From NCBI GenBank assembly GCA_030581615.1, contig JAKTTT010000002.1, positions 62,001 through 126,000 of the forward strand: 64,000 bases of DNA, given 5' to 3'. Below the pieces are notes generated by a model, which saw only the letters and a program-made list of their open reading frames with translations, had not been told where the DNA came from and made no database searches. The translations under genes were made by a program, and so were the position numbers. This DNA is from Alloascoidea africana. Its lineage: Eukaryota > Ascomycota > Alloascoideomycetes > Alloascoideales > Alloascoideaceae. Shown piece by piece: positions 17,875 through 62,621 of this stretch. Every line of letters starts with the position of its first letter. Position 1 is the stretch's first letter.

Positions 17875-18337
17875 GTTATTTCGTCAGCTTTTTTTCTCAT
17901 TGATTCCGAAATACTCCATATCTTTGCTACTTTTGTTTTATGCAAAGCTATGCAAAGGATAATTCAATTTGTAGATAGATAGGGGGAGAGAGAAAAGAAA
18001 TGGGCATTAAGTAATAAATTTATTAGAACACTTTACTTGAATCTCTTTAGATCACAGCAGAACGTAAAACAGCAGGACCAGGTTTACGGGAGACATTCTG
18101 AAAGTCAACTTTACCAAGATTCCAAAGTAAAAAAATGTAAGAATTATGATTCTTATGAACAAAAGGCTCAGTATAATCAAGAATGGTGTAATAATGAGAC
18201 TGAAGCCAAATAGTATAAATAGAACTTTGTTTGTATATTTAGTTTTCTTCTTCTGAAGCTACTTAATGACAATCTTTTGAGCCATAAACTTGAGAGTTCA
18301 GAACAGAGGTTCTGTTCTCTCACAAAGTAAAAAAACT

Positions 18338-18424
18338 TCCCCTATAGCTCAGTTGGTAGAGCGTTCGGCTTTTAGGACCAAAAAGCCAACCGAAATGTCC
18401 AGGGTTCGAGCCCCTGTGGGGGAG
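18338..18424 (+). tRNA. tK(UUU): tRNA-Lys (anticodon UUU) with 14-nt intron
   Basis: All arms fold: acceptor TCCCCTA/TGGGGGA, D stem GCTC/GAGC, anticodon stem TTCGG/CCGAA, T stem CAGGG/CCCTG with loop TTCGAGC, discriminator G. The anticodon TTT is at 18371-18373. The intron 18375-18388 lies after position 37, as in yeast tRNA-Lys(UUU), and contains AAAAG, able to pair with the anticodon loop. The mature length is 73 nt. A T run (TTCTTTTT, 18428-18435) follows as the RNA polymerase III terminator. It is the only certain gene in a 6.3 kb stretch. Confidence 0.97.
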
Positions 18425-21400
18425 ATATTCTTTTTCACATTATTTCAAATTTTTGACGTAAATAATTGAATTTTAAATTTTTACTTCGAAAGGGATAGTT
18501 ATTTTTGCATCAATTTAGAAAACTGTGGCTATGCTGCTTCTCCAGAGGGAAATGAAAATGCTGAAAACTCAAGGTCATAGATTAGGCAAAAAACACTTGT
18601 TTGATTTATCAATCTTCCATTAAAGCCAAAAAGGTATAACTTAACTAATTATTTACTCTCATTGACGAGAAGAGCAAAACTATAGTAGGTCATTAGAAAC
18701 TACTAAAAATTAAGGGATAAACTTAATAGAACTCAAGGGAAAGGACATTAAAAAGTGATACCCTCAATAATCAAGTTGTGGTTTGTTCTTTGATACTTCC
18801 TTATTTTTGATTTTATCTAATTATATTAAAGATCATTTATTTGAATGACGACAGTCAGAGCATGCAAGTGAGTGAATTACGAATTCTTGAACTTAGGAAA
18901 AGCTTCGCTAATAATGAAGAAGCCTTGTGATTTAGAAAAATTGGCATAGTAATACTTAGAAGGGATGAAAGAAAATCTTATTCCCACGAGAAGCAATGAC
19001 AATGACTTTGAGACAGTACGGACGTCCTTTCCAACGTTGTGTTTCGTTGGATAGATTTCTAAGGCTCAAAAACATCTCCGAATAAATGAAACTGATTATA
19101 GTTTCGAGGGACATTTCTAGAGCTCTAGAAAGATGATACACTCTCCTATTTACGAAGCTTATGACGATATTTAAATTTTAAACTAAGAATTTCCAAAAAC
19201 CAAGCTTTAGAAGATGTTCTTTTTACTGCTCATTTCAAAATCATTCACAAATTTGTTCAAAACAGCAATACATTTAAATATTCTTGATGAAGAACCTGAA
19301 ATGGACCTACTTGACCCTTGAATTTTTAGTTCTTCTTTATATAGACGACAGTGCGATATCAAATTGAGCATTTATAAATAATAAAACTGCTTTATCAATT
19401 AAAACTCTACACACGCCGTCATATGGTAAACTTAAAAATTCAGCTTAAAAAGTTCATTAATATATTTCCAGCTCTGTGAAAACCAGCCTTCATGACTGAT
19501 TGACTAGTGGGTCACAACTAAATGTTAGTGCCCTAAGTCGTAGAAATAAAATTATTGTTACTATCGGGTGACATAGCTCCATGAGTCTCATTCTCAATGC
19601 CAATCATCTTTTAGGCATTTTAGTTCAGTCTAATATTTTGATAAGCTGAAATCGATACCAGCTAATGCTGGAAGTTGGTGAACGGATGGCTAATCAAAAC
19701 TAAGAAAAACATCTCGTTCAAAGCTTGACAAAGCTTCTAGAAGCATGCCCTGGCCCCCAAGAAACGACTATGCATCCCAATTCCCCGATTAGAGACTAAA
19801 GCGGTCTTAAATGATAGTAGGCAGCCCTATATGCCTCTTTGGAAGGGAAGCATTTAATCTGAATTGTGTAGATACTTCTTACTTGAATGAACAATTTTAG
19901 ACAGGAGATCGCAGCACGAACTTACTACGTGTGCAAAATGAAAACAGTTGGAATTTCATTTCGTATTTAAGTCCGTCTTCAAAAGCCCCAAAGCGTGACC
20001 TCAACAATGATATCCGGGGAGGTCAATTTTGTATTTTTTCGCCTGTATAAGGTTTAATCAAATCACTCAGAACAAAGCTCGTGAGATCCAGGGTCCTGAT
20101 AGAGATCCTTACTTTGTTTAAAAGCGACTGCGAAGAACATAAGAGAATTGCTTCAAGGCATAAAATAGATTAATCAAGTTTGAAGTACTGCCACTGGGAC
20201 TTTATGCTAAAACAAAAGGATAATGCTCAAATTTCCTGTTTAAGTGATTTGGGATCACAACAGCATAGCACAATATTTCATTATCTGAAAATAGACAAAT
20301 TCCGAAACCCAGACTGATTTAAAATCAAAATCTCAACTCAATTGTTCGTATAAACATGCTATTTGCGTAAATTTAGTGAAAAAGAACGCCAGAAAGATGG
20401 CCTAGGTCGATATATGGAGATAGCTGCTCTGAGTTTAAAAATAATGGGATGTCGATTCAACAATTCCATACCCTGATTGACAAAGAAAAGGAAATGGCTT
20501 AAAACTTTTTGTCCCCTATATATAGCACAATGAATACTACTACCTGGACTCCAATAGGATGATTGTAAGCTTGACTCCTTATGTGGCTAGTGCCACACTC
20601 TCAGCCTATACAGGCGTTTTCTCAAAAGTTTGGACAAAAACGGAACGCTTTATTGCTAGAGAATCTGGCGCAGGAATAAACTTACTGGAGATTTTTAAAA
20701 GGTATATGATGACGGCTTGAATATTTTCAATGTAGACAAGCTGACGTGAATAAGTAAGGATGGACTGCTAATTCTGCAGCTTCGGCCAACTTCATCAGTT
20801 CGACATCGCTGAACCTTGACACTTTGCTGTCCAGCCGGAAGATGGAAGACATTCTTAACTTGCATGAACCAGTATATTAAAAAATAAGAGGTGGAGTGTA
20901 ACAACTCAATTGTAAATTGAGTTTTTAAAGAAAAGAGGTTGCTCGTAAAGAACATAGGTGTTGTTTGTATAGAAGTAACGGCTCACACCAAAACTTCTGA
21001 AGTAAAGAGGGATTCTAGCCAAGGAAACTTTAACCAACACACTCAAGCTTCCCATAGGAAAGTAAAGCCTGGTGCCAATTTTCATGCCCTTTATTCGACG
21101 ACTTAATTATTAATGTTTCCGTAAAGCTTCCACAGATATCAACCTTGGCCCTGTGTATCGGTCATATCGAATGATGCTGGCTTTTATTCCCTTGTCCTTT
21201 ACATCTTTGGTTTTCAAAACTCTTAGAATGCAGGGCCGTGGTCCATTTTGGTTGGGGGAATATTTTTAAAGCTTTGAAGAAGAAAGATCATCCAAACCAA
21301 TATGAAGGTTTTTCTATTGAAGCCTAACGAGTTGAAGCCACATTTATTGCTGATTATATCGGTAAGATCTATATCTTATCAATCAGTAGTTACAGGTTGT

Positions 21401-45379: not shown

Positions 45380-46718
45380 CTACTCGTGCTTGACAATCTG
45401 TTTTTTGCCCGAGCCTCCTTTGATGGCGGCCTCGAGGGCCTGGAGGAACGCAGAGAACTTGTCATTTGGGCCGCCTGCGCCCGTGGACCTCAGCTCTGCG
45501 GGCGAGGACTGGAGGGCGCCCTGGCGGTACAGGTCCAGGACGGCGTCGATGGTGTCAGCCTTGGCCTGGGGGTCTCTGTTGGAGACCTCTGTCATCCAGA
45601 AGCCGTGGCAGTGGATGTTTTTGAAGATGAACAGCGAGGTCGGCAGCACGATGGGCTGCTTGGACATGCCGCCGTAGGTCACGAGATGCCCGCCCGGAGC
45701 CAGCTTGCGGGCGAGATTCGTGCTCGACCGCCCGCCCACGCAGTTCAGCGCCAGCTGCAGCCCGGCCGGGCTGCCCCCGGCCGGGTTAGCCGCCAACCAC
45801 GTGCGGATCTCGCCCGCGAAGCCGCGGTCGCCCGCCTGCTCCTCCGTGATCACGTGGTCCGCGCCGAGGGCCCGCAGCTCTGCCGCGAGACCCGCGAAGT
45901 CGGCCCGGTCGCGGACCACGTTGATAGACCGCACGCCCCAGGCCCGGGCCAGCTGGATCGCCGCGCGCCCGACCGCCGAGTTGGCGCCGTTCTGGATGAA
46001 CCAGTCGCCGGGCGCGAGCGTCGCGAAGCTCTTGAGCATCAGGTACGCCGTGGACGGGTTCACCGTGACCGTGGCGGCCTGTTCCGCCGTGATGCCCTCG
46101 CGCCGGACCCGGATCAGCTCGTGGGGCTCCGCGAGCGCGTGGCTGCGCCAGGTCCCGAAATTGGGCAGCGCGGGCACCACCCAGTCGCCGACCTGGAGCT
46201 GCTGAGCAGTCTCAGGCCCCAGGCCAACGACCTCAAACAGACCCTCGTTGCCGCCGACCGCACTGGGCTCCGCGGTGCCCAGCTCGGTCGTCAGCTCCGG
46301 CCTGGAAGGGTACACGCCCTCCAGCTGGTTGATGTCGGCCGGATTGATGGGAGATGCGATGTTTCGGATTAGGATTTGGGTGTCCTTGGGATCCGCCAGC
46401 TCGTAGGAATGAAGTCTAATTGTCTCTTGCTCGAGTTAGTGCCGAAATCTTGAAATCTTTCACATGCTCATGCTCATGCACAATCTCACTGTGTTTGCCG
46501 AGCTCTTAGACTCAAAGCTGTTAAGTACAAGTAAGAGAAGAGCAAAAGATTAAGGGTTCGTACCTCACCACCTCCAGGGGATTGCCGGGCTTGGAGTACA
46601 CAATCGCATGTGCACTGACCACAGTCCGATATTGATATTGCAATTGCGAAATGCCACTTCTCAAACCACTGCGGACGGCTGACCGCACAGAATTCTGATT
46701 CAAAGCTCGGGAGATCAT
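45380..46718 (-). CDS. ETR1: Mitochondrial 2-enoyl thioester reductase Etr1, two exons
   Basis: Exon 1 46564-46718 (MISRALNQNSVRSAVRSGLRSG, an Arg/Ser-rich presequence); intron 46416-46563 with donor GTACGA, a CACTAAC branch and acceptor TTAG; exon 2 45380-46415; 396 residues. The junction restores VVRLHSYELADP. Key blocks: SPINPADINQLEGVYPSRPE (catalytic Tyr of the family in GVYPSRP), GNEGLFEVVG, FIQNGANSAVGRAAIQLA (Rossmann fold NADPH site), NVVRDR, LNCVGGRSSTNLARKL and TYGGMSKQP. Etr1 catalyses the last step of mitochondrial fatty acid synthesis and is needed for lipoate and respiration. Exon 2 is strikingly GC-rich compared with its flanks, but its sequence is yeast-like, so transfer is not needed as an explanation. 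Confidence 0.95.
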
Positions 46719-53588: not shown

Positions 53589-56500
53589 TCACGCCGACGG
53601 TGAGACGGTCGCTTTTTTCGAAATTGGCTTCTCATCGAGATCATCATAGCTCCCAAATCGCTTCCCGTTCTGATTCAGAGGTGAAGACACTTTCTCTTGT
53701 GGGATCCTGTTTATCGTACCGCTTTGATGACGATTATGATATTCACGCTCATGGCGGGCTCGCTTTGCCTTGTACTTCTCCATAAACTTTCTCATGTAGC
53801 CAGACACAAATGTCTTGATTTTGGCCTTTTTCGAATCGCCAAGTTCTCTGGGTGGATCATTACTAACAGAACTTCCCTCATTCCGCCTAATCTCTTTTTC
53901 CACAAGCAGATGGACTATGTCCCGGGCACAATTCTTCATGGTCTCATGCCCAATAGTCTTTTCATATTTAGCAAGCATATTAGGAACGTACCTGGCAAAC
54001 TAAATTTTTGAGTCTTGTTAGATCAAAGGGTTAAAAAAAAACAAAAAAGTGCCATAAAAATGTCCAAACTTACGAGCTTTGTCCACTTCTTATCAATGGG
54101 AACCTGCAGAAGCTTCATCTCCATAGTGCGCTTCTTTTCCTCTAATTTCTTCTTCTTTTCAAGCTCTTTCTCCTTCTTCTTTTGTTTCTCCTTTATCCAT
54201 TCGAGCTTTTTCAACTCTTTCTTTTTCTCCTCCTCCTTTCGCGCTTCTATCTGTGCATCCCTTTGCTGTTTCCTTTCTTCCATTGCTTTACTAGCATTAT
54301 CAATGATATCTTGAATCCGCCTTTGCTGTTCATCTACAGTTTCTGCTTCCTCAATACCGTTTTTCTCTTCTTGCCATTCCGTATTTGGTTCTTCAAAACT
54401 TTGCTCACGTTGAAAATCTGCTCTACGTGGATCTCGCGGGTGCGGTTGGGGTTTTTTCCTTTCTCGTCTTCCTGTTCCGGCGGCTCCTTCATAATGAATT
54501 TTTGGCCTCTCCCACTGTTGGATACCAAGACTTCTGTTGTAATAATAAATTTTACCACCAGAAGCAGTTGCAGATTCCCACCCTTCGGGTATTTCATTCA
54601 ACGGCTTTTTGCCAAACCTTTCAGAAGACGGGAAAGACGGCCTTTGACCGTTCCCATTCCGATAAGGGCTTTTCCAATTGGAATGAGAATTATGACCATG
54701 GCTATTTTTCGGTTTTATCCCATTAGAATTGATGTGATCGCCTGTAGAATGTTCCGAAAATGGAGTAGAAGGGGTGCTTCCTCCTTGCCCGGGTGTTGGC
54801 ATTGATGCCAAAGAATTTTGTGATCTTTTGGGTATTCTATAACCCATTTTTAGCTTTCCCCATTCTTCTAAAAGCGCTTGTCCCAATGTATGGATCTCTT
54901 CATTTACATTATGTTCTTTGTTTTCAACACTCTGAAGAGCGTTTTGTTCCATCAATAGCTTTATCGTCAACTCAATTTTCGACGATTCGATCTTATTCCG
55001 CGTAAGTTTGGGCCAACTTGTTAGCACTTTCAAAATAAGAATGACAATTTCTTCGTTCAGTTTCTTGTCTTTCTCCGATATCGTTGGATCTGCGTTTTCT
55101 TCCGATTCAGGATCGGATTCCGGCGTCTCCTTTTTGACATTAGTGTCCACTTCGTCTTTTTCCTCTTCCTCGCTTTGGTTTATAGTTTTAGAACCTTTTA
55201 TTATCGCGGAATCGCGGAGAATAGTATTAAATATCTGATAGCCATGCATTCGTATTACTCGGTTTTGCAATGTAGAATCTTCAGTTTTGTGAATTCTTTG
55301 AATTAGCTTCTTTGTGATCCATTTTTCCTGGCTCGTTAGCAAGCCTCCCATAATCTTGGAGACTTCTTCGTCCGTGTTTATAGCTCTTGTAGCCAACTTG
55401 CTGATAAACTCTTCCGAGTCCACATAATCTTCATCATCTTCACCCGACCTCTTCTTCTTTCTCTTTTTCTTGTTCCCGCCCACTGTTATCCACGATAGTT
55501 GCTCATCCAGTTCATCATCTTCAATACCAAGAGCGTCATAAAGCGCGTTTGATAGCTTGGAAACCGATTCCGTTTGCGTTTTACCGCCGATGATACCAAT
55601 ACAGTTATCTTCACCGCAGTAGCACGTTTGTGCCTGGGCTCCATATCTGTCTACGTTGTAGTCGAAAGTGATTTCTTCGCCTTTTAGAATATCCCTTTTC
55701 GCAAAGATACCCATCCGGAGTTTATCCTTCACGACCCATTTTTCAACATAACTGTTTGGATTACACGAATGATTGCAGAATCTACCCAGCCCTCCTTTTT
55801 CGGTAGCATCGATGTATTCACTTTTCTGTAACATCATAAAGTAGAAATGTTTGTATCCTCTCTCATCGTAATGCACCATTCGCTTTCGAAACTTTTTCTC
55901 ATCTATCACCTCGCCGATGTACTCGTAGATAAAGGTATCTTGTAATATGTCTTCCTCGGCCCGTAGTCCGTATCCTTTTTGGTCTGTTTGTATAACTGCC
56001 ACTTTCGCGTACTCTTTACGTTGAAATCGCTGGTTTCGACAATGAGGACCACAGTTACAATGGCCAGGAACACATTCCACGGAAGTGAGCCTATTTATAC
56101 AATCCGAAGACTCTCCACAGGCGTAGTTGACTCCATTTGCTATTTACGTGTTTTTGTTAGCGAGGAAAGCACACAGAAAGAAAAAAAAAAATGAAAAGGC
56201 GCTTCAGCTTTTTAACCTACTAAACATTGGGCGACAGTCACACGTCATCATTTCATCGAGGCCTGAATCAGCAATATATCGGTTGCTATAACTGCATTCA
56301 TCTAGCTGATGGAAGGTTCCTAGCGCCTCTTCTGTTTTGTCGTCATGTTCATGGAAGAACTGGTATTTTACGGGCATCGTAGATCTGATATTGCTTTTCT
56401 TGTTCTTTGGCGGCGGGAGAGGTTCCAGTGGAGTTGTAATCACGTCGATATGCCCAGCTGGTTCTTCTATATGCCTGTATCCGTTCGGTCTCTCAAGCGA

Positions 56501-56821
56501 TTTGTTTTTTGCCTCGTGGTTGTTGTTTTTGTTGCTGTTTGTCCCATCATGACCATTCAGGTCTTGGTCCAGTGGTTGTTCGTGTTTCTTACCGTTAATA
56601 TACCCATCAGGACGATTATCTAGCATTCCACTACTCTTTGCCATCTCTGACGGCGAGGTAGCAGGAGACTGTGTAACAAGCGTGGTGGTTGTGGCTCCCG
56701 AGCTTTTAATCTTTCCATCGTCGTCCACAAGGTCAGAATCGTAGTCCAAGGGCTCCTCCTCCTCGTCTTCGTCCTCTTCGTGATACGGTTTTTCAGTGCC
56801 AGCGATAGGATCCGGTTTCAT
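53589..56821 (-). CDS. SET2: Set2 histone H3 lysine-36 methyltransferase, three exons
   Basis: Exons 56221-56821, 54074-56139 and 53589-53999; 1025 residues. Intron 1 (donor GTAGGT, CTAAC branch, acceptor AATAG) interrupts the AWS domain and splicing restores CDCRPMFTNGVNYACGESSDC. Intron 2 (GTAAGT, CTAAC, TTTAG) interrupts the SRI domain, restoring KWTKLFARYVPNMLAKYEK. Order: acidic N-terminal 180 residues; AWS Cys cluster; SET domain with GYGLRAEEDI, GRFCNHSCNPNSYVEKW and EEITFDYNVDRYG; post-SET CYCGEDNCIG; a Lys/acidic middle; a WW domain (PEGWESATASGGKIYYYNR, about 716-745); a Glu/Lys coiled coil; and the C-terminal SRI domain that binds the Ser2/Ser5-phosphorylated CTD of RNA polymerase II. 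It methylates H3K36 during elongation. Longer than S. cerevisiae Set2 (733) because of the N-terminus and middle. Confidence 0.97.
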
Positions 56822-58680: not shown

Positions 58681-61542
58681 CTAGAACCCGCGCCGGTTGC
58701 GGAAGACCCGGGACCGGGACCCGAGACTCACGACCGCGCCGGTCTTGCGTCTCTTCACAGCGTTACCCTGCCCCGCCCGCCGCATCTCTGCGGGGTTACC
58801 CTGCCCCCGGCGGTCCTCCTCCAGCTCACGGCGGTCTTTTTCGATTTGCGACTCCAGCTGCTTTCTGGTCGAAAACTCCTTGACCGTGAGCCGCCGGTCC
58901 GCGCCCACGTACTCCTTCTCCTTGACGCTGTAGAACACGCCGCCGTACTCGGCCAGCCACCGCGGCTCCACCGCCGTCACCGTCGACATGTATTCCTTCG
59001 CGGTGAGAATCAGCTCATGGTAAACCACAAAGTCCGGGATGTATCCCAGTCCATACAGCGCCGATGTTGGGTGCAAGTGCATCGAGAGAGATGTTCTTAA
59101 GTTCTGATACTCTCCAAAGCCCTTCACTTTAGCGGCCTGGTGGAAGAACCCTGAGCAGATGCATCGCCGGATAATGTCCCAGTCCGTACCACACGACTTG
59201 GTGGGCATGTTGTTCTTGGTCATGATGGCCAGTATCTGTTCTCGCACATCGCGAGCTCGCCGTAGCGACTTGACGTGTAGAAAGTATTTCTGGCACCACC
59301 GGTCCGAGTAGTTGTTTGCGCGCCATTGGTTGTACACATGTAGCAGAGTCAGATGATCGGACTCAGGAACGAAAAATCGTTCTCTAGCCTGGTCGGATTC
59401 TTCTTGTCTCTCCTTGGGCCGATAAAAAACATTCGGAACCGAGAGCATAGATACAATTGTGATCATCTCCTCTGCGCATGCATTTTCCGAAGCCATAATT
59501 AGCAATTTAGAGAGTGATGGTTCCATCGGGAAAAGCGACATTTTCTTGCCAAGTTCTGTTAATTTGCCTGTGTTTGTTAACGCGCCAAGAGCCCACAGAT
59601 CGTATAAACTGGAACTCATAGTATCCTCTGGAGGAGCATCCATGAAATCAAACCGTAACAAATCGTCTACACCTAGTGACTTCAAGAGCAACAATGTGTT
59701 AGACAAATTCGTACGCTGTATCTCTGGAATCGTTTGCAAGTACATGTCCTCTTTTGTGGCTCTGAACGGATACATGTGATAGGCTGTTCCTGGTCCTGTT
59801 CTCCCTGCTCTGCCTGCTCTCTGGCTCGAGTTTGCTACTGAAATTGGTACAATCTGCAACGCGTCCATCTTCATTCGTGGGTTGTAAACCTTTAGTTTCG
59901 TATAACCAGAATCAACCACAAACCCAATGCCATCAACAGTAAGCGATGTCTCTGCGATATTTGTCGCAACAATAACCTTTCTTACGCCAGGTTTCGGCTT
60001 ATCAAAAATCTTGGACTGCAAATCTGCAGGCATTTGTGAATAAATGGGTAGGATTTCAATAGGCGGTGCATCTTCCTGTAGTTCTTGAATCCTTTCCGTC
60101 AAAACTTCACAGGTAACCTCAATATCCTCCTGACCCGTCATAAACACCAGTATATCTCCTTTTTTCCCCTGCATGTGAATAGACAATACTTGTTTTATAC
60201 ATGCTTCCACATAGTCCTCGCAGGGAGAGTTTGTATATACATGTTCAACTGGAAATGTTCGACCAGGAATAACGTACTGTGGTGCGCCACCATAAAACTT
60301 TGAAAACCTATCCGCATTCATCGTCGCTGATGTTACTATCAGCTTCAAATCCCTCCTTTTGGAAAGAATGTTCTTGAATAATCCTAACAAAATGTCCGTA
60401 TTCAATGATCGCTCATGAGCCTCATCCATAATTATACAAGAGTATTTCTCAAGTTCCCGTTGTTGTAAAGACTCTCTTAACAGAATACCGTCTGTCATGT
60501 ATTTGATAACTGTTGACTCATTAGTACAATCCTCGAATCTGATCGCATAGCCTACCTCTTCTCCCAGTCTGACCCCCATCTCTTCGCTAACTCTCTGTGC
60601 AACGCTCATCGCAGCTACTCGTCTTGGCTGAGTACAGCCAATCATTCCTCGTTTCCCGTATCCATCCTCGTACAGAAACTGTGTAAGTTGTGTCGTTTTA
60701 CCAGACCCTGTTTCTCCGATGATGATTGTAACCTGGTTATCCCGAATCACTTTGAGCAGTTCCTCTCGCACAGCAAAGGCCGGGAGCGATTGCCTCTGAT
60801 GCCGCAGCTCTTCTCCATTGCTCACTTTACTCTTCGTATCGTTTCCATTCTTCCCTCTCCAGTATTTGTTGCTGCCATCCCCATTTTGGTCATCTTCGTC
60901 CTCCTCTTCTTTCACTTGAAGTACATTTCCCAAGGTTGTTCCTACCAAGCTAGCGGCTTGCTGAGCCTGTTTAGCCCGCTCCTTTTTAGATCTTCTCTCT
61001 TTGACCAAAAAGCTTCCTTTTCTAGAAATTACTGCCATGTCGCTGTTTGGATCCAGCACCGAGGATATTGGATCCTTTTGCCTCGTCAGAATATGCCGTC
61101 CGTCTAAAAATGGTGGCTCCAAGTGGTGGACGCTTAGAGACTCTCTTGTTTCTCTGTTTTCATCTCGGGTCTGCAAAACAGGTTGTGATGAACTCATCGT
61201 GCCTGATGTTATCATTCGATTCTGCTCCCATAATTCATTATCTCTTTGCGCTTCCTGTCGATGAAACCTTTGCTTTTTGGACAGTTTCTCTTCTAATTCA
61301 GCCTCTCTATCCAAGTCATACAGACTTTCATCACCAAAAGGGTTATGCGTTTCTTCACCCGCGACTTGTCCAAACTCATCTCCCAAGTACCAACCCCGGT
61401 CTTGTGCTATCGATGACTCTGCATCATAGTATCCGCCATTATCTTCATGCTCACTTTCGCGGTTAAGCCGGCTTGTGGATCGTTTATTCTGCGCAATTTT
61501 TTTGTTTGAGTCTAGCTTTTTAATCATCGTCATCTCCGTCAT
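58681..61542 (-). CDS. PRP16: Prp16 DEAH-box splicing ATPase
   Basis: 953 residues. The N-terminal ~265 residues are disordered and charged with the family marker [19 protein letters not shown]. The helicase core has motif [11 protein letters not shown] (about 277-284), Ia [21 protein letters not shown] (near 371), III SAT (near 402), [13 protein letters not shown] and [10 protein letters not shown]. Winged-helix, ratchet and OB-fold regions follow ([41 protein letters not shown]). It remodels the spliceosome after the first transesterification step. The C-terminal tail is Arg-rich with a [19 protein letters not shown] duplication encoded by GC-rich DNA. The first ~25 codons and the promoter form one arm of an inverted duplication shared with MRPL20. 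Confidence 0.94.
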
Positions 61543-61622
61543 ATCTTTACTGTTTTGGTTGGAGTTTGTTTGTATGCGAAATTGTTCAGTTTCAGAATTA
61601 CTCTCCAGTACAGTATTTACAC
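61464..61622 (-). repeat. Left arm of inverted duplication at PRP16 start
   Basis: Minus-strand sequence from GTGTAAATACTG (61622) through ACTGAACAATTTCGCA (61590-61575) to AAGCCGG (61473-61467) matches the plus strand at 61938-62103. Coding parts align without gaps over 24 codons (about 52 of 72 bases identical, starting ATGACGATGAT). Confidence 0.85.
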
Positions 61623-62033
61623 TTAGTGATGATCATTATCTTCATCTATAAACTAAACATCTATAAAACAATGAAAATGTCTATTTGACAATTTAATTAA
61701 AAGAGTTATAAATGAAAAATTAAGAAGTGAAAAGTGACAATCTGTATTTTAGTCGCTCTGTATCAGAAGATATTTGCTATAAGTGGAATTGACCCTTCTC
61801 AAAACTCAGCATCATGTTCACTGTAATTCAGCTTGAAAGCTTTTCATTTTCCTTTTCCTATCTTTTATATCCATTGATAGGCAATTGTTTATCTTCCAAA
61901 AAAACTTCTATGACATTGAAATTGCTGAAACCTCTCTGTGTAAATCAAATACTGATATGGTAATTATGAGACTGAACAATTTCGCACACAAACTCAAGAC
62001 TCCAGCAACTAAAGCATCCAACATTTGGTGAGG
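61543..62033. promoter_or_regulatory. Divergent promoter PRP16 / MRPL20, mirror-symmetric
   Basis: 491 bp between the two ATGs. Both outer ends are near-copies of each other in inverted orientation (61543-61622 and 61938-62033), so both genes may be driven by duplicated promoter-proximal elements. Confidence 0.6.
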
Positions 62034-62103
62034 ATGACGATGATAAAAAAGATAGGCTCAAATCAAAAATTGGCCTTGAGTAAACTGGTTTTAAGCCGGT
62101 TTA
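61938..62103 (+). repeat. Right arm of inverted duplication at MRPL20 start
   Basis: Counterpart of 61464-61622. ACTGAACAATTTCGCA is at 61971-61986, ATGACGATGAT at 62034-62044 and AAGCCGG at 62093-62099. The arms are separated by 315 bp of unrelated sequence. A few small gaps occur in the non-coding part. Confidence 0.85.
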
Positions 62104-62621
62104 AGTCAACCGCTTCAGAAGCAGTTCCCTCTTTCACACAAATTCCAAACAAGTACAACGAGAAGCGATCCCGTTCAAACATTCGACCAAAATTGCCCAG
62201 TGGGTTGATTTATGCTCCAGCCCCCTCCGCGCCTACACCTTCACAGACTCCAAATGCTTTCCTTCCTGCCTCAGATGCCAGGAAGCAAACGATTGCCGCT
62301 GGCGAGTATGGATATGACATAGCTAATATGCCATCGCTTGTGGGCGAGGGAAAAGCGAAGAAGTATCACCTTGGAGAAGCGGAGGTTGAAGAGATCCAGA
62401 GATTAAGACATGAGGATCCCGAGAAATGGAACGTTAAAGCGCTTGCTGAAAAGTTTGGTTGCAGTACAGGCTTTATATCGATGGCCTCTTCTCCACATCC
62501 AGAAAGAACCAAAGAGATGGACCGAAGACTGGAAACCATCAAAGGGCAGTGGAGTGCAGGCCGTAAAGTTGCAAGAGAGGACAGAAAGAAGAAGAGATTG
62601 GTCTGGAATCGGGATGAATAG
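62034..62621 (+). CDS. MRPL20: Mitochondrial large-subunit ribosomal protein mL58 (MRPL20)
   Basis: 195 residues from the ATG at 62034, the same length as yeast Mrpl20. The N-terminus MTMIKKIGSNQKLALSKLVL has no acidic residue and is followed by SRFKSTASEA, a typical matrix presequence with a cleavage site. Family blocks: LPSGLIYAPAPSAPTPSQTP, EEIQRLRHEDPEKWNVKALAEKFGCSTGFISMASSP, and the basic end AREDRKKKRLVWNRDE. It is a yeast-specific constituent of the mitochondrial 54S subunit. The presequence-coding region is homologous, in inverted orientation, to the first codons of PRP16. Confidence 0.92.
   Translation: MTMIKKIGSNQKLALSKLVLSRFKSTASEAVPSFTQIPNKYNEKRSRSNIRPKLPSGLIYAPAPSAPTPSQTPNAFLPASDARKQTIAAGEYGYDIANMPSLVGEGKAKKYHLGEAEVEEIQRLRHEDPEKWNVKALAEKFGCSTGFISMASSPHPERTKEMDRRLETIKGQWSAGRKVAREDRKKKRLVWNRDE

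Follow-up and report, generated by a model that had tools for sequence, protein, structure and literature searches.

Results

The PRP16 and MRPL20 Genes Are Divergent Neighbours

The DNA considered here, in what follows called the window, is a stretch of 64,000 nucleotides from the yeast Alloascoidea africana. Near its right end it holds two genes that are read away from each other:

58681..61542, minus strand: PRP16 (DEAH-box splicing helicase), 953 amino acids in one open frame, ATG at 61542
62034..62621, plus strand: MRPL20 (mL58), 195 amino acids in a single open reading frame, ATG at 62034

The identities that a first-pass annotation of this DNA had given to the two genes are confirmed by Pfam and PDB matches. 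PRP16 has the Pfam domains DEAD, Helicase_C, HA2 and OB (OB_NTP_bind), and the five distinct sequences that it matches in the PDB with E values up to 1e-250 all carry the name PRP16 or prp16-like, so that by domain set and best PDB names it is a Prp16/DHX38 DEAH-box splicing helicase. MRPL20 matches PF12824 (MRP-L20) over residues 36-191 with an E value of 5.8e-50 and 170.1 bits at a cut-off of 30.4, and its best relative, from Trichomonascus ciferrii, is 54% identical at 82% query coverage. When the genome (23.18 Mb in 138 contigs) is searched, MRPL20 gives a single match and no second PRP16 is found; the ten other matches to PRP16, at 34-48% identity, are taken as other DEAH helicases.

The same pair of genes lies head to head in Saccharomyces cerevisiae, as judged from systematic names. 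MRPL20 is YKR085C in database names, and PRP16 is YKR086W, which is consistent with published text in which both names occur. Since the suffixes C and W denote opposite strands, it follows that MRPL20 and PRP16 are divergent neighbours also in that yeast. In a published account, the PCR tags YKR084C to YKR086W, like the genes MRPL20 and PRP16, belong to one repaired HBS1-OMA1 region. In two yeasts, furthermore, the PRP16 and MRPL20 records come from contigs of equal size, 37,429 bases in one case (P0008 and P0049) and 14,657 bases in the other (P0010 and P0060). Contig sizes and gene names lead us to regard the head-to-head arrangement as ancestral and to place the origin of the inverted duplication described below within it.

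Three other places in the window deserve mention in their own right. ARAGORN reports a tRNA with anticodon TTA (stop) at 18337-18425 on the plus strand, and this stretch, ...TTCGGCTTTTAGGACCAAAAAGCCAACCGAA..., resembles what we would take to be an intron-containing tRNA-Lys(UUU) rather than a suppressor. The reading frame at 45380-46372, presumably a mitochondrial 2-enoyl thioester reductase by resemblance, has a long frame open on the opposite strand too, and the half-kilobases starting at 45.5 and 46.0 kb have GC contents of 70% and 63%, to be compared with 42% for the window. A gene at 54023-56821 on the minus strand, which we assume to be SET2-like, appears as two frames, as if split by an intron.

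The Two Gene Starts Share an Inverted Duplication

The starts of the two genes, with the DNA in front of them, are organized as follows:

61462..61622, minus strand: block on the PRP16 side, read as an inverted copy and probably captured; 80 bp of leader and 27 codons, 24 of which align with MRPL20 codons 1-24
61938..62105, plus strand: block on the MRPL20 side, the probable source; 96 bp of leader and codons 1-24
61575..61590, minus strand: identical 16-base leader word ACTGAACAATTTCGCA, PRP16 copy
61971..61986, plus strand: identical 16-base leader word ACTGAACAATTTCGCA, MRPL20 copy
61623..61937, no strand: spacer between the arms, 315 bp, without significant arm-to-arm similarity

The first-pass annotation had proposed that about 160 bp at the starts of PRP16 and MRPL20 are an inverted duplication, and this is real. 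The two segments that it had named align with a score of 398, and dinucleotide-shuffled sequences give a mean of 138, a standard deviation of 15 and a maximum of 200, so that the score is reached by none of 2000 shuffles. Aligned globally, 61462-61622 (minus) and 61938-62105 (plus) agree at 122 of 158 aligned bases, with 13 gap columns, which corresponds to an arm identity of 77%. The leader and the coding part each reach significance alone, with scores of 215 and 183 and shuffle maxima of 140 and 116, respectively (0/2000 in both cases), and the two matches are colinear and in the same frame. As had been noted, 13 of the first 24 residues are identical without gaps and in frame, and at the DNA level 52 of the 72 bases agree. 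The 16-mer ACTGAACAATTTCGCA occurs in both leaders, and its exact matches in the whole genome are these two. A third copy of the block was not found in the 23.2-Mb genome, either by DNA search or with the exact 16-mer. Two inverted copies thus surround a single-copy spacer, as in a fold-back inverted duplication, and the spacer itself presumably holds regulatory DNA. That the two starts descend from one sequence through a local inverted duplication is well supported.

The edges of the block can be placed approximately. On the coding side, the match stops at 61499/62069 under stricter scoring, and a gapped, anchored extension beyond this point lacks significance, being reached by 24 of 150 shuffles. 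Compared without gaps and in frame, codons 13-24 are identical at 21 of 36 bases (binomial P 6.8e-6), while among the 937 in-frame registers of PRP16 no other exceeds 18, and codons 25-36 are identical at 7 of 36 bases (P 0.77). Since the former stretch is significant and the latter is not, the end of the block is set at about codon 24, and this is the less certain of its two edges. Upstream of 61622/61938, similarity is not significant in free local alignment (158 of 2000 shuffles) or in anchored extension (20 of 150). The sharing of promoter-proximal DNA that had been claimed therefore applies to the stretch of 80-96 bp in front of the ATGs and not further out; promoter sharing beyond about 96 bp, which came from an initial alignment of about 250 bp, was dropped as unsupported by the local and anchored extension tests. 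Because the arms are 77% identical, the boundary of the spacer is not resolvable to the base and microhomology at the junction is not readable.

PRP16 Lacks the N-Terminus That Its Closest Relative Retains

The closest of 37 PRP16 relatives, P0005, has 1157 amino acids and is 73% identical to the window protein. P0005, P0006-P0008, P0010, P0011, P0013 and P0017 are extended at the N-terminus by a long stretch in which they share a domain of about 75 amino acids. A profile made from seven of these eight carriers finds the domain in 8 of the 37 relatives and gives no match to window PRP16. The other 29 relatives, many of the named ones from filamentous fungi, are also without it; the domain is no defining feature of the Prp16/DHX38 family. 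Its pattern is LAxxIAxQLNR...AFGKF, there is no Pfam match at this place in P0005, and searched against the PDB the N-terminal domain profile gives chance-level matches (best E 0.11).

Compared with P0005, window PRP16 is without about 240 N-terminal residues. When residues 1-289 of P0005 are used as query against the genome, residues 226-289 alone find a match, at the PRP16 locus, and a counterpart of residues 1-225 is not found. Residues 1-80 of P0005 give no match, an empty result that proves nothing when taken alone, and residues 1-217 of P0010 give one match, on another contig, with an E value of 0.015. As a control of sensitivity with a different query, the tail of P0005, 71 residues of poor conservation, was recovered with an identity of 42% and an E value of 1.1e-6. 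In the window and the next 6 kb, no convincing remnant of the old N-terminus is seen (the lowest E values are 0.37 with the profile and 0.023 with tblastn). That no counterpart of P0005 residues 1-225 was found agrees with fold-back duplications, in which sequence is lost from the end that is joined, and the N-terminal loss probably occurred in the same event as the duplication.

Where the native protein begins was approached by aligning parts of window PRP16 with seven of the eight extension-carrying relatives, with 500 shuffles for each. Residues 27-56 score above all 500 shuffles in seven of seven cases. Residues 1-26 are not significant against the same seven relatives (65 to 399 of 500 shuffles reach the score), and neither is the leader when read in frame (74 to 487 of 500); leader and residues 1-26 taken together fall in the low tail for two of the seven (28/500 and 22/500). 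The best local alignment to P0005 begins at window residue 27, corresponding to P0005 residue 240. Residues 24-40 alone are for most relatives not above the shuffles (matched in score by 23 to 395 of 500), and the genome match of P0005 residues 1-289 extends back to PRP16 residue 10, which is inside the block. Judged from these alignments, it is clear that similarity to the PRP16 family is demonstrable downstream of the block and not detectable inside the block alone. The hand-over from block to native PRP16 is not sharp, and the native part would begin somewhere within residues 27-40.

The PRP16 frame is open for 30 codons upstream of the ATG, which is what a leader with a coding past would show, although 10% of shuffled sequences are open as well. 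As annotated, the PRP16 of Trichomonascus vanleenenianus (P0009) starts 18 residues before a conserved WY motif that has 48 residues in front of it in window PRP16, and it is without the N-terminal domain of the eight relatives. From this short start it follows that N-terminal loss may be recurrent or may precede the capture, or that a missed start or the annotation is responsible.

PRP16 is an essential gene in other fungi. The S. cerevisiae protein has 1071 amino acids in its PDB record, as compared to 953 for window PRP16, and its residues 146-187 correspond to window residues 24-63 in a weak alignment (-2.9 bits). This alignment places the cut near S. cerevisiae residue 149, so that the lost part is roughly equivalent to the first 150 residues. 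For deletion of S. cerevisiae Prp16 residues 1-150, no defect is reported (PMC9960301).

The Coding Part of the Block Falls Within the Putative Presequence of MRPL20

One further feature of MRPL20 takes in all 24 codons of the block:

62034..62114, plus strand: putative presequence for import of MRPL20 into mitochondria, approximately residues 1-27

Similarity to the MRPL20 family begins at residues 35-36. The chains 3j6b_a (195 amino acids) and 5mrc_a (177 amino acids) are, we assume, both S. cerevisiae mL58, with the shorter chain as the mature form. Chain 5mrc_a equals 3j6b_a minus its first 18 residues, and it starts seven residues before the residue that is aligned with residue 35 of window MRPL20. 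From this start follows that the N-terminal end of mature MRPL20 would lie near window residue 28, and that the 24 codons of the block would belong to the presequence, so that the block in MRPL20 is probably a cleavable presequence. The first 25 residues of MRPL20 have a net charge of +6 and no acidic residues. Among 120 MRPL20 homologues listed, none has a comparable presequence like MTMIKK..., with a short local match at most (best score 27), and for this reason the source of the MRPL20 presequence is undatable. A loose arginine cleavage motif, considered as a marker of polarity, occurs in 39 of 90 anchored homologues (of the 120) and was discarded as too loose.

The PRP16 copy is rich in lysine and arginine, with a net charge of +7 over 25 residues counted from its second methionine. 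At the positions where MRPL20 has L15, L18, V19 and L20, the PRP16 copy has Q, R, S and T, and over the best 18-residue stretch hydrophobicity averages -0.76 in PRP16 (from the second methionine) versus 0.04 in MRPL20. The helical moment is 0.46 in PRP16 versus 0.36 in MRPL20, with a median of 0.44 for MRPL20 homologues, and since it is not lower in PRP16, loss of targeting is not established despite the lower hydrophobicity. That mitochondrial targeting was lost and a basic nuclear signal gained in the PRP16 copy are possibilities that its composition would allow. In simulated sets of 20 random changes, the PRP16 value was reached from MRPL20 in 39 of 2000 sets and the hydrophobicity of MRPL20 from PRP16 in 212 of 2000, but neither copy still has the ancestral sequence, and this simulation therefore does not decide the direction of copying.

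Direction of Copying

The first-pass annotation had left two directions open, and it is the gain of a new PRP16 start from MRPL20 that agrees better with the data, in that about 240 residues are missing from PRP16 and the block alone is without detectable similarity to the PRP16 family. We regard it as probable, with good though far from complete confidence, that the leader and presequence of MRPL20 were copied, inverted and joined in frame to a truncated PRP16.

The principal alternative is that the start of an already truncated PRP16 was copied and inverted upstream of MRPL20, where it gave birth to a leader and a presequence. MRPL20 presequences show no conservation from one species to another, and a replacement would hence leave no scar, the PRP16 frame is open through the block, the P0005 match reaches PRP16 residue 10, and with 212 of 2000 sets of changes arriving at the hydrophobicity of MRPL20, the gain of a presequence is not improbable. 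However, the block alone has no significant similarity to the seven PRP16 relatives, unlike residues 27-56, and the birth of an MRPL20 targeting signal from a PRP16 start, as the first-pass annotation had suggested, has found no positive support. As a matter of argument, furthermore, copying from MRPL20 leaves two working starts, whereas copying from PRP16 requires a separate, earlier loss of its N-terminus together with the creation of a new start, and a start codon at the same place in both copies is what one expects when the source is the start of a gene. Given the undatable presequence, the short start of P0009, the open leader frame and the two low tails, we keep this reverse direction as an unlikely but still serious contender.

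It is considerably less probable that an upstream exon supplies the old N-terminus of PRP16, so that the ATG at 61542 is not the true start and the block is partly intron or leader. The frames of P0006-P0008 stop after VIRDNQ in an intron-like manner, and some genes in the window look split, but three queries and the profile search nearby did not find the old N-terminus, whereas a control at 42% identity was detected, and the frame of P0005, the closest of the 37 relatives, is not interrupted by an intron. Independent donation of the block to both starts by some third source, for instance a mobile element or a different mitochondrial gene, is very improbable, since nothing in the data speaks for it and two copies only were found in the genome by DNA search and exact word, in genes that are head-to-head neighbours. 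Nothing speaks for mere chance, for regulatory words common to both starts or for an artefact of assembly, and these can hardly be credited at all, with no shuffle in 2000 reaching the score, with leader and coding parts significant each on its own, colinear and in the same frame, and with copies that at 77% identity look too diverged for an artefact.

A Proposed Course of Events

If MRPL20 was the source, the likeliest route is a single repair event. PRP16 and MRPL20 would have been head to head before it. Along the line leading to this yeast, a deletion would have removed the front of PRP16, comprising about 239 codons, the start and probably the gene's own leader, and a broken end upstream of MRPL20 would have folded back or switched template and copied the MRPL20 start. 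The copy, with leader, start codon and presequence codons 1-24, would then have been joined by its end, inverted, to the broken PRP16 gene near codon 240, with the reading frame preserved, and the 315-bp spacer would be the left-over loop of the fold-back. PRP16 would now be translated from the captured start, in which basic residues were kept and several hydrophobic ones lost. Arms of about 160 bp, a single-copy spacer of 315 bp and the loss of the 5' part of PRP16 are together what is expected from fold-back priming followed by end joining. The fold-back route itself has about an even chance of being correct, since another template switch would leave the same picture.

Discussion

Templated foldback inversions at DNA breaks are described for yeast (PMC11724301), and in human inverted duplications a single-copy spacer is described as marking a fold-back (PMC3907307). 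The PRP16-MRPL20 duplication is like these in being an inverted copy of nearby DNA, with a single-copy spacer as in the human case (PMC3907307) and with the other end captured by end joining as in yeast (PMC11724301). It differs from them in that the product is a retained, in-frame start of a gene, whereas the products described are mostly of about 5-34 bp in yeast and large in human. In rice, rpl6, a transferred gene for a mitochondrial ribosomal protein, acquired a 5' leader (PMC2631504). The present case is like rice rpl6 in that a 5' untranslated region would have been gained from unrelated DNA, but in rice the recipient is the gene of a mitochondrial protein and the donor a transposable element (PMC2631504), whereas here the recipient would be a nuclear gene of the spliceosome and the donor the leader and presequence of a mitochondrial protein. 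The event is a variant of known processes, fold-back duplication and chimeric gene starts, in which donor and recipient are both unusual. In a search of the literature at the level of abstracts we found no report of such a capture between PRP16 and MRPL20, which does not prove that none exists.

The duplication is real, old and local, and most likely it replaced the front of a helicase gene by the start of its neighbour, so that a targeting signal seems to have become the start of a nuclear protein. PRP16 may be expressed from a captured leader with a decayed presequence, with a coupling of its expression to mitochondrial ribosome synthesis through the shared leader, takeover by the captured basic stretch of the part that the lost N-terminus played in nuclear import, or residual mitochondrial targeting as conceivable consequences, but this we put forward as a speculation that is more likely to be wrong than right by a wide measure. 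The locus is a single case in which start, leader and N-terminus would all have been changed by one local rearrangement. With a mitochondrial targeting sequence as donor and a nuclear splicing factor as recipient, it would be the reverse of the usual story. The truncation lies near a part of Prp16 that is reported as dispensable in S. cerevisiae, and from this follows that both the survivability of such an event and a retargeting of the protein are directly testable.
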